From: a virus
IMG/VR virus record: IMGVR_UViG_3300024346_000277
Location: 1 to 33,337 of that record
Length of the DNA: 33,337 nucleotides
Strand: one strand, 5' to 3'
Shown here: piece after piece, positions 3,319 through 9,511 of the stretch
Layout of the letters: each line of letters begins with the position of its first letter
Numbering within the stretch: the first letter of the stretch is position 1
Translations under genes and position numbers: made by a program
The notes under the pieces: generated by a model
What the model was told of the DNA's origin: nothing
The model's input: the letters and a program-made list of their open reading frames with translations, nothing else
The model's database searches: none

Positions 3319-3398
3319 TCCCCTAGTGAGTTCGTTGGGGTTATCGTTAGTTCCTTACCAGCAATGGTTATACGGTAGCCCCAACATTAGGGAGACAT
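3319..3398 (-). promoter_or_regulatory. Structured leader upstream of the DNA-modification cassette
   Basis: Between the terminator and the ParB-like start, a seven-base inverted repeat (GTTGGGG at 3385-3379 pairing with CCCCAAC at 3340-3334, read on the minus strand) encloses about 38 bases. Inside it a smaller ACCA/TGGT hairpin can form at 3357-3368. The cassette promoter should also lie here or inside the terminator, but I see no convincing -35/-10 pair. It could be an mRNA leader that controls the cassette or simply a protein-binding palindrome. No known riboswitch class is recognised. Confidence 0.4.
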
Positions 3399-3400
3399 AA

Positions 3401-3438
3401 AAAAGCCCCCAACCCAATTTCTCAGGTCAGGGGCTTTT
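3401..3438 (-). terminator. Rho-independent terminator after the DUF932 gene
   Basis: AAAAGCCCC at one end pairs with GGGGCTTTT at the other (nine base pairs). On the minus strand the stem is followed by a run of T. It lies just downstream of the DUF932 stop and separates that operon from the modification cassette. A short T-run also follows on the plus strand, so it may work in both directions. Confidence 0.88.
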
Positions 3439-3454
3439 CTGTTGGGGGGAATTG

Positions 3455-4459
3455 TTATCGGGTTACTTGAAGCAGTAACTCCATTGCGTGAATATCAGCC
3501 TCGGCGTTCTTGCCTTTAAGCGTTTCCATCATCGTACGTTCTACAGCGATGGTATTACCCCGTATAGGACGCTCGTGCTGACGGTATGTATTAACGGCTT
3601 GTAGAACACCATAGCCAGTACCTTTCCACGGTGATACTCGCTCATCTGAGATGTACAAGTTCTTTAACTGCTCACGAACGTTATCGGCACGAGTTTGTTT
3701 GTTCGCCCCATCTGCACCTGTCGCTGGTGCAAACTTGGTAAGGAACTTGTCAAACTGGTTATCCGAAACCTTAATAGCAAGAAGTGTCTCCAATTCTTTC
3801 GTGAACTCATCAGACATGGTGTGAATAATATCTAACGCTGAACGTGCTTCTGCGATTCGTGTAAGTGATTTGGAAGTATGACGAATACGGTATGTCTGTC
3901 CATTTTCGTCCAATGCCATTTCACGAGTGTTATCGCAAACCACGATTGTTACAACACGCTTGTACGTTGTCGCAATGGAACCATTAAATGACGTAGTAGC
4001 AAGAAGTGTTGGTCTGAACTCTACGTCAGCAACCTTCATGTTTTCTGGCATTTCAACTTGTACCCAAGCAACTGCACCGCCTTTAAGTAGTCCAGCAGAA
4101 CCGATAACTAGGTCATCGTCCAAGAAGTTTGCAACGTTCTTGATAAGCCATTCGCTGTACTGGTGTGATTGGTACTTCGTTGAAGGTACGCCAAGACTTG
4201 CGAATGTGTCGTCACGAACAATTACTTTCTTGTTTGGTACCACCATTTTGTCACCGTTTGGAGTTGTGTATTCCATTGGTAGTTCTATTGCGTTCCAAAA
4301 GAAAAGACGGCGTTCAACATCTTCTACTGGAATTGCTAGTTCATAGTGGTTTGGTTCTGCACCTTGACTGGATTCTTTGTAATGCCATGCTTTACCACGC
4401 TTACTTGTCATGCCAATCAAAATGTTTTGGTTATACCACTCTGTTGTTTCTGTTCCCAT
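3455..4459 (-). CDS. DUF932 family phage/plasmid protein
   Basis: A 334-residue protein that fits the DUF932 family (phage/plasmid-like protein TIGR03299). Recognisable stretches are the N-terminal GKAWHY segment, RDDTFASLGVPSTKYQ (the usual 'vG..Y...Q' region), a central TYKRVVTIVVCDNTREMAL segment matching the common RIVCSNTL region, and the C-terminal WKGTGYGVLQAVNTYRQHE matching 'gTayaalNAvteY.dH'. The biochemical role of the family is unknown; it is frequent in phages and mobile elements. It has a strong AAAAGGAACAA ribosome binding site before ATG 4459. It follows the tRNA-like RNA and the unrecognised 296-aa gene and is closed by the terminator at 3401-3438, so the three probably form one transcript. 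Confidence 0.85.
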   Translation of the reverse strand: MGTETTEWYNQNILIGMTSKRGKAWHYKESSQGAEPNHYELAIPVEDVERRLFFWNAIELPMEYTTPNGDKMVVPNKKVIVRDDTFASLGVPSTKYQSHQYSEWLIKNVANFLDDDLVIGSAGLLKGGAVAWVQVEMPENMKVADVEFRPTLLATTSFNGSIATTYKRVVTIVVCDNTREMALDENGQTYRIRHTSKSLTRIAEARSALDIIHTMSDEFTKELETLLAIKVSDNQFDKFLTKFAPATGADGANKQTRADNVREQLKNLYISDERVSPWKGTGYGVLQAVNTYRQHERPIRGNTIAVERTMMETLKGKNAEADIHAMELLLQVTR

Positions 4460-4495
4460 TTTATTTGTTCCTTTTATTTGTAGGGTTTTGGTTTA

Positions 4496-4579
4496 ACGCC
4501 TCTCGGCGTAGTGGGTGGTCGGGAGTTGAACCCGACTAGGCGACCATATCGCCCACCCTGTTTCGTTTGGGGGAAACGA
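4496..4579 (-). ncRNA. Structured RNA with a tRNA-like acceptor/T-arm core and no D-arm
   Basis: On the minus strand four helices follow each other in the gap between two genes. First, TCGTTT/AAACGA closes a CCCCC loop (4579-4563). Then a 46-base core (4558-4513): outer stem GGGTGG/CCACCC, an inner hairpin GGCGA-TATGG-TCGCC, and a T-arm of five pairs (TCGGG/CCCGA) around TTCAACT, the standard T-loop sequence, stacked directly on the outer stem as in tRNA. Last, ACGCC-GAGA-GGCGT (4509-4496) has a GNRA tetraloop. There is no D-arm, and only 17 bases lie between outer stem and T-arm, too few for a normal tRNA. It may be a tRNA-derived element, a processing signal or a tRNA mimic. Confidence 0.55.
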
Positions 4580-4583
4580 TTTG

Positions 4584-5474
4584 TTAGAAGTATGCGAATA
4601 CTGCTTGGTACTTCTTAATGATTGGAACGATTAACAAGTCTGGAAGGTCTGAACGCCAACCGTTGTTAAGTGCTTGTTCAAGAACCATTGATACTGCTTC
4701 TTTGTACTGAACGATGCGAGGCTCTGAACTCCAATGTTCAATAACAGAACCAATAAGGTTCTTGGTAATTCGCATTTGAGTTACTACGCCAAAGTGAATT
4801 GTGTTTTCCAACATTTGTTCTGTGGTGGCTGGCTCTGAATATGGAAATGATTTTTCAATCCATTGTTCACAAACTTTAATAGCACGTTCTGAATCTTTTG
4901 ATAGCGGTTGGGTTTCCCTAAGTACAACAAGTTTGTTATCCCAATTAATTTTTGCTTGGGCTTGTTCTTCTTCTCGCTTGATTTTTGCAAACATACGTCC
5001 GAGTTGGTCGCCACTTGCAAAAGCATCTAAAAACTCATACCAATCTCGGTAATGACCAGTTGCAGTTTCACCTTGATTAATTTCAACAACTATGGCTTCG
5101 CCTTCTGGGTCAACGACTGTTCCTTGAATCCAAATACATTCGGCTTCGCCCCATCCACTTTTGTAAAGCAACTTGGTTGCGTAGTAAGAGTTTTTGTTTG
5201 TGCCGTACTTTGTTTCGTTGCGGAATACTTCGTTGTGAAGAAGGTCGTGAATCATCTCGTTGGCTTCAACGATAAATGCTTCCACGGGTTCTGTGCCGTA
5301 AGTTTGTGTTGCTGGAATCCATGCTTGTCTTTCTGTAAAGCCAAGTTGAACTTGATAATCGTCACATTTGGTTAGTTCGGTAATTAACTTTCCAATTTTG
5401 GTTCGCTTATCAACTTTCCATGTTCCTGCTGTAAAAATTGGCATGACGCCAACTGTGTTGTTTTCTGTTTCCAT
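4584..5474 (-). CDS. Unrecognised 296-aa phage protein
   Basis: I do not recognise a family. The protein is soluble, has no membrane segment or signal peptide, and is rich in Trp and acidic residues. Visible features are the GTWKVDKRTKIGKLITEL segment near the N-terminus, an EANEMIHDLLHNEVF helix, a charged KIKREEEQAQAKI helix around residue 165, and a helical C-terminal third. ATG 5474 is chosen over GTG 5486 because GGGAG lies upstream at workable distance, while it overlaps the GTG. The promoter-operator module at 5545-5635 lies upstream, and the structured RNA starts right after the stop. The fixed order with DUF932 hints at a shared function, unproved. Confidence 0.75.
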   Translation of the reverse strand: METENNTVGVMPIFTAGTWKVDKRTKIGKLITELTKCDDYQVQLGFTERQAWIPATQTYGTEPVEAFIVEANEMIHDLLHNEVFRNETKYGTNKNSYYATKLLYKSGWGEAECIWIQGTVVDPEGEAIVVEINQGETATGHYRDWYEFLDAFASGDQLGRMFAKIKREEEQAQAKINWDNKLVVLRETQPLSKDSERAIKVCEQWIEKSFPYSEPATTEQMLENTIHFGVVTQMRITKNLIGSVIEHWSSEPRIVQYKEAVSMVLEQALNNGWRSDLPDLLIVPIIKKYQAVFAYF

Positions 5475-5544
5475 TTTGTTTTTCACTCCCTAGTGATTTT
5501 GTTGTTTATGAGCATCGCTGTCTTTTGAGTACGGCGCTCGTTGT

Positions 5545-5645
5545 CAGTATATACGTTAATTAGATACCTAAATACCCATTTTTCAACCCCTTATGGTATA
5601 AGCGTTTGCGAGCCTGTCCCCTAGAGATATAGCGCCCTAGAGATA
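5545..5645 (-). promoter_or_regulatory. Promoter-operator module, copy B
   Basis: Read on the minus strand this region has tandem TATCTCTAGGG boxes (plus-strand CCCTAGAGATA at 5619-5629 and 5635-5645), GGACAGG, a 13-base palindrome CTTAT-ACC-ATAAG (5602-5590), GGGGTTGA..AATGGG, and 21 bases later TATATACTG, whose TATACT is a near-ideal -10 hexamer. The same elements in the same order and spacing occur at 9512-9603. It precedes the 296-aa gene. The palindrome is a likely regulator site; I cannot place a clear -35. The remaining bases (5475-5544 and 5646-5689) show no further gene. Confidence 0.65.
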
Positions 5646-9460: not shown

Positions 9461-9511
9461 TTTTGGTACCCCTATCGGTAAAGCCCCTAGACGGTCTAGT
9501 TGCTATAAGTA

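Follow-up and report, generated by a model that had tools for sequence, protein, structure and literature searches.

MascRNA, a small tRNA-like RNA, is cut out by RNase P and RNase Z, and in the polycistronic RNA of mitochondria tRNA structures lying between genes mark the cutting sites. Hairpins made of acceptor stem, T-stem and T-loop alone are good substrates of RNase P, which also cuts the phage RNAs M3 and C4 and the T4 gene 32 mRNA (PMC11143913); the tRNA-like structure of TYMV is cut by the same enzyme, according to references listed in PMC11143913. In substrate recognition, G292-G293-U294 of the RNase P RNA pairs with the 3' RCC, an unpaired N-1/N73 fixes the cut at +1, and the protein subunit touches the leader from N-8 to N-3 (PMC12710915). 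The phage element described here is of a known kind, a tRNA-like structure, but its architecture is new.

Architecture of the element

The window, which is the whole 33,337-nt stretch of viral DNA that was analyzed, carries a 46-nt tRNA-like RNA at 4558-4513 on the minus strand, between a gene encoding a 300-residue protein and a DUF932 gene. The site consists of the following features:

4584-5486, minus strand: gene on the upstream side, encoding a 300-aa protein of no known family; stop codon at 4586-4584
4563-4579, minus strand: 5' hairpin UCGUUU-CCCCC-AAACGA, which separates the upstream stop codon from the core (from the fold)
4513-4558, minus strand: tRNA-like core, G1 at 4558 and C72-equivalent at 4513; sequence GGGTG GGCGATATGGTCGCCTA GTCGGG TTCAACT CCCGAC CACCC
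4554-4558, minus strand: 5' strand of the acceptor-like stem, GGGTG, pairing with 4513-4517 (from the fold)
4540-4552, minus strand: D-arm-like hairpin GCGA-TATGG-TCGC (from the fold and from compensated stems in contigs L005 and L127)
4518-4536, minus strand: T-arm, stem GTCGGG/CCCGAC, loop TTCAACT at 4530-4524 (from the fold and family covariation)
4513-4517, minus strand: 3' strand of the acceptor-like stem, CACCC (from the fold)
4510-4512, minus strand: ACT after the acceptor, being a discriminator-like A, a C74-like C and then T
4496-4509, minus strand: 3' hairpin ACGCC-GAGA-GGCGT, GNRA loop, beginning at +4 after the acceptor (from the fold)
about 4475-4468, minus strand: Shine-Dalgarno (SD)-like AAAAGGAA before the DUF932 gene
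3455-4459, minus strand: downstream gene, DUF932 (PF06067; phrog_1221), start codon 53 nt past the acceptor

Three hairpins are thus packed into the 124-nt gap between the two genes. On the minus strand, the gap folds at -38 kcal/mol, compared with -25.2 +/- 3.3 kcal/mol for shuffled sequences (z = -3.9; 0/200 shuffles as good); the plus-strand fold of the same gap is unremarkable (z = -1.4). The structure is real and resides on the strand that codes for the genes at this site, the minus strand. If the T-stem is taken as 5 bp, the acceptor-like stem gains a sixth G-C pair, 4553 with 4518. The same stem covaries across the family described below.

All the parts listed in the initial annotation are present at 4496-4579, namely a T-loop on a stem closed by G-C, an acceptor-like stem, a core hairpin and two flanking hairpins, with the GNRA loop (GAGA) in the 3' one. 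That annotation had called the structure D-arm-less, which has to be reversed: the extra hairpin is the D-arm counterpart, because it carries a GG (4545-4544, the counterpart of tRNA G18 G19) that contacts the T-loop, and the arm without a counterpart is the anticodon arm. As in a tRNA, a TTCRANY T-loop closed by G-C is combined with a GG elbow contact to that loop.

The element belongs to neither of the two RNA classes closest to it. ARAGORN detected no tRNA in the window, and Rfam at gathering thresholds returned no match in the window and none in ten multi-copy loci except one ordinary tRNA. Membership among tRNAs is rejected on length, 46 nt in the window and 40 nt in most family members as opposed to a cloverleaf of about 70-90 nt, and on the missing anticodon arm; the initial annotation had rightly judged the structure too short for a normal tRNA. 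The best sub-threshold Rfam match of the window element, mascRNA (19.4 bits, E = 0.12), lies far below the gathering cutoff of mascRNA-menRNA (RF01684; 42.5 bits), so that this assignment is rejected as well. A typical family member matches the mascRNA model by its T-arm alone (13.8 bits), and an RF00233-type match of the window element spans only the 15-nt T-arm (10.2 bits).

A family of elements in phages

A first search pattern, with acceptor and T-loop fixed, recovered more than 120 viral contigs, mostly with a 40-nt form composed of a 5-bp acceptor, an 11-nt linker, a 6-bp T-stem and a 7-nt T-loop. A covariance model (R1) was built from 49 short elements of other phages, leaving the window out; it matches the window at 4561-4510 on the minus strand with 28.8 bits (E = 3e-5), the next best score being 8.2 bits. 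R1 gave 192 matches in 75 loci, 98 matches in 21 loci found by an independent pattern and a further 39 matches, three sets that partly overlap. The family comprises more than 200 members, distributed over environmental phages and phages of Streptomyces and Mycobacterium. Laboratory phages that infect Streptomyces coelicolor and Mycobacterium smegmatis harbor 5-14 copies; Papyrus has 14, Cuke 10, Joe 9 and Endor2 10, the latter divided into nine strong copies and one weak match within a tail gene. R1 has no match in phiC31, R4, Giles, Patience, Rey, Bongo, Jayden, Orchid, REQ1, Ziko or SWU1.

Could the element be a tRNA gene in decay, as the initial annotation had offered, or a chance hairpin? 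The T-arm looks genuine, and one Endor2 copy lies inside a tRNA-Arg annotation. However, the window element has more than 200 counterparts in a family that is uniform and covarying, with fixed lengths and positions, and a structure scan of the loci returned 200 distinct matches against one in shuffled DNA, a contrast inflated by the partial choice of these loci with a related pattern. The same loci contain acceptor variants that had not been selected for (GCCTG, GCGTG, GCGCG, GGGAG). Covariation and recurrence reject both ideas, to which we attach a negligible probability.

Two further observations concern the reach of the family. The tRNA-Arg annotation of Endor2 (L130, 44378-44460), which overlaps one mini tRNA-like element, is probably a misannotation; Sitrop (MT701598) has a tRNA-Arg annotated in the region homologous to that of Endor2. 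Members with the linker AAYGGTTTT... occur in five contigs of 33-38% GC (L039, L064, L117, L122, L038). These low-GC contigs may come from non-actinobacterial hosts, because the L039 terminase has distant (26%) matches alone, to phages of such hosts.

Covariation and the tRNA elbow

Both the acceptor stem and the T-stem covary in the family, and the T-loop is near invariant. Tertiary contacts were counted, beyond the search criteria, in 177 distinct 40-nt matches. In 176/177, the bases at linker positions 2 and 8 are Watson-Crick partners (C-G, A-U, G-C or U-A). Linker 4 and T-loop 2, equivalent to tRNA 18-55, are G and U in 169/177 and switch jointly to A and G in 6/6 elements from six contigs; these six lie 7-19 positions apart, and each is at least as close to some G-U element. 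Linker 5 and T-loop 3, equivalent to tRNA 19-56, are G-C in 176/177. Linker 9 can pair with T-loop position 7 (tRNA nt 60) in 167/177 (A-U 134, G-C 24, C-G 7, U-A 2), whereas the best of 20,000 shuffles, which ignore relatedness, reached 128. Judged by its internal pair and its contacts with the T-loop, the linker therefore does the work of a D-arm in miniature and restores the elbow of a tRNA. The additional pair with nt 60 distinguishes this actinophage tRNA-like family, and we know of no tRNA that has it.

The ends of the helix are constrained as well. The terminal pair G1-C72 is G-C in 176/177, with the inner pairs free to vary, and the -1 and +1 bases are able to pair in just 3/177. Position +1 is A or G and position +2 is C, each in 176/177; +3 is mostly U and is C in 4/177 only, so that the RCC motif is incomplete, and -1 is mostly A. 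The window element, with A at -1, A at +1, C at +2 and T at +3, agrees with this signature throughout. The stacked helix has 11 bp in the main class and 12 bp in a minor class. Such end constraints would be odd for a plain hairpin and natural for a site of cutting by tRNA-maturation enzymes.

Homologous sites and the DUF932 gene

The site itself can be compared among relatives. In contig L005, whose DUF932 protein is 61% identical, an element is found at the same place, and all variable stems have changed relative to the window with pairing kept: the D-arm-like hairpin is GCTG-AACGG-CAGC in place of the window's GCGA-TATGG-TCGC, GG being kept, and the T-arm is TCACGG-TTCAACT-CCGTGA. No change is seen in the acceptor stem, the A-C that follows it, the GG or the T-loop. 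L127 provides a third case of the extended form (hairpin GCTG-GTCGG-CAGC), and a dedicated scan found none beyond the window, L005 and L127. The compensatory changes in homologues on which the initial annotation had staked its structure beforehand were looked for, and are present. The window site is old, because the element stands directly before DUF932 in L005 and L077 (proteins about 60% identical) and in Papyrus too.

This neighborhood raises the question of whether a host or phage protein, or the ribosome, reads the tRNA elbow as a binding site and so controls how the next gene is transcribed or translated, for instance in auto-regulation by DUF932. The element adjoins DUF932 in several phages and is located in 5' leaders ahead of the SD. 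Yet most family copies precede genes unrelated to DUF932, no DUF932 match was found in Endor2 despite its strong copies, and Ziko presents the reverse case, DUF932 without the element. A strict link between element and DUF932 is not supported by these findings, and regulation through a binding site appears improbable.

Position between genes

The placement of the element relative to genes is strict. Among 190 distinct elements, G1 lies 6-10 nt past the end of the upstream stop codon in 109, and the start codon of the next gene usually follows 33-52 nt past the acceptor. In the annotated genomes of Endor2, Konstantine, Papyrus and Cuke, 38 elements are oriented in the sense of the genes; 34 are wholly intergenic, four overlap an annotated gene end, and 30 begin 6-15 nt past an annotated stop. 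A 3' hairpin begins at +3 to +6 after the acceptor in 180/253, and the 30 nt downstream exceed shuffled sequences in stability by a wide margin (mean z -2.5); an upstream hairpin is weaker, less general and of less regular form among family members (mean z -0.8).

This strict placement in cis with respect to start and stop codons, together with the conserved 3' hairpin, argues against the element being the source of a small stable RNA that, once excised, acts in trans, for example as a decoy for enzymes that modify or process tRNA. Numbers of up to 14 copies per genome would suit such a role, as would the closest Rfam match, mascRNA, itself an excised tRNA-like RNA; we nevertheless regard it as quite remote, below regulation through a binding site.

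The main rival to cutting is an uncut barrier in the mRNA, in which the pseudoknotted fold and the 3' hairpin would together block 5'-3' decay by RNase J, 3'-5' decay or ribosome run-through, keeping the cistrons independent. The constant position just past the footprint of a terminating ribosome and the hairpin directly 3' of the element are in keeping with it, and so is Ziko, where gaps of this kind are occupied by another covarying structure, a pseudoknot plus hairpin. A barrier, however, needs neither the T-loop/GG elbow nor a fixed G1-C72, unpaired -1/+1 bases and an invariant purine at +1 and C at +2. We hold it to be unlikely, albeit the foremost of the alternatives.

The Ziko structures were noted in the record of this Gordonia phage (MK919478, L132) at 37.2-41.7 kb on the minus strand, where each of nine gaps among the early genes, about 75-90 nt long, contains a repeated structure distinct from the tRNA-like element: 6-8 nt located at or close to the stop codon, with a sequence that varies from gap to gap, pair with the loop of a short hairpin that follows a long hairpin, forming a covarying pseudoknot. 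They support a general need for structured punctuation, without pointing to a particular enzyme. A tRNA-like structure of about 95 nt, flanked by hairpins, was also noted in the L5-like Mycobacterium phage SWU1 (JF946695, L173), on the minus strand at about 51.31-51.41 kb, where it precedes the last leftward gene annotated at the right end. It has an acceptor GGGTAG/CTACCC and a normal T-arm, and the ACTACGCC that comes next is shared with the window; ARAGORN misses it, and Rfam scores it as tRNA-Sec at 22.1 bits (E 0.027).

In the window, the genes around the site are on the minus strand, and those for terminase, portal, head protease, capsid and tape measure lie further right. No intrinsic terminator (GC-rich hairpin plus T run) was found at 4300-4900, and no promoter-like or terminator-like site at the gap, which we count in favor of tRNA punctuation. 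Past the DUF932 gene, 3319-3454 on the minus strand contains a strong hairpin (AAAAGCCCC...GGGGGCTTTTTT) accompanied by a T run, resembling an intrinsic terminator. The motif CTCTAGGGG, allowing at most one mismatch, occurs 8 times in the window against 2.6 expected; its copies at 3320-3328, 5618-5626, 5634-5642 and 9484-9492 on the minus strand are all intergenic and in a single orientation, and it is possibly a repressor or stoperator-like site.

Proposed mechanism

The reading we prefer, by a modest measure, is that host RNase P, perhaps with RNase Z, cuts polycistronic phage mRNA at the element, in the manner of tRNA punctuation. The element would act in cis as an anticodon-less structure within the mRNA, its acceptor-like stem stacked on the T-arm. 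The short linker, or the small hairpin in the window, would place a GG in the T-loop and thereby rebuild the outer elbow and the acceptor end, which are what tRNA-maturation enzymes recognize. RNase P would cut just 5' of G1, a few nucleotides past the upstream stop codon, and RNase Z may cut directly after the discriminator-like base. Such cuts would divide the transcript into individual mRNAs. The mRNA on the downstream side would begin with a stable structure or carry the 3' hairpin close to its 5' end, and we infer that the stability or the translation of the mRNA is affected.

By analogy with known substrates, it is quite possible that the element functions as a minimal substrate of RNase P. 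The space between stop codon and G1 approximates the leader zone contacted by the protein subunit, N-8 to N-3, which counts for RNase P. Since RNase Z is inhibited by CCA, avoidance of C at +3 would fit that enzyme, although the 3' hairpin lies within 3-6 nt and might get in its way. Several features speak against tRNA punctuation: the main-class helix falls short of the 12 bp of tRNA, +3 is rarely C and -1 mostly A, and the window copy is the only one in its contig and sits 25 nt from stop codon to G1 with the 5' hairpin in between.

The initial annotation had also proposed a tRNA mimic and a site for tRNA-processing enzymes; both fit the evidence well, the second as a putative cutting site, and the first interpretation as a whole is partly supported. 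Taken jointly, the pieces would define a new class of minimal anticodon-less tRNA mimics in actinobacterial phages, serving as intergenic tRNA punctuation at which RNase P (with RNase Z) splits early mRNA into separately stable messages, and in which an 11-nt linker rebuilds the elbow and adds the pair to nt 60. We judge this full combination to be evenly balanced between right and wrong.

Comparison with known systems

A widespread structured RNA family in well-studied phages has apparently gone unnamed: it is absent from Rfam 15, one Endor2 copy is filed under a tRNA-Arg annotation, and no description was found in open-licence papers, a body of literature that gives weak evidence of absence. 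If the element is a processing site, phages would organize gene expression via host tRNA-maturation enzymes, and the element would rank among the smallest natural folds keeping the tRNA elbow, a compact, portable cutting site and a natural test of what RNase P requires.

R4/L5-type stoperators and other intergenic repeats of actinophages (PMC10276819, PMC3029335) are likewise repeated between early genes in one orientation, but stoperators are short DNA repressor sites, whereas the elements are RNA folds with compensatory changes. The 3' tRNA-like structures of plant viruses (e.g., RF00233) are also viral tRNA mimics with a T-arm; they occupy the 3' end of the genome and have a pseudoknotted acceptor, while the element is internal, repeated and encoded by a DNA phage. 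Compared with the tRNA punctuation of mitochondria, the elements of phage operons are not tRNAs, have no anticodon arm and measure 40-46 nt.

MascRNA/menRNA (RF01684) shares with the element the organization of a small tRNA-like RNA with an acceptor stem, a D-like hairpin bearing GG and a T-arm, and differs in keeping a small anticodon-like arm, in its 7+5 bp helix and in being single-copy in vertebrates. A functional likeness is seen to the model substrates of RNase P and to the M3, C4 and T4 gene 32 RNAs (PMC11143913): the element resembles a minimal substrate, and, as with the phage substrates, a host enzyme would cut a phage RNA. In contrast to these substrates, the element, whose cleavage we infer, is repeated, covarying and intergenic, and has a GG linker that rebuilds the elbow.
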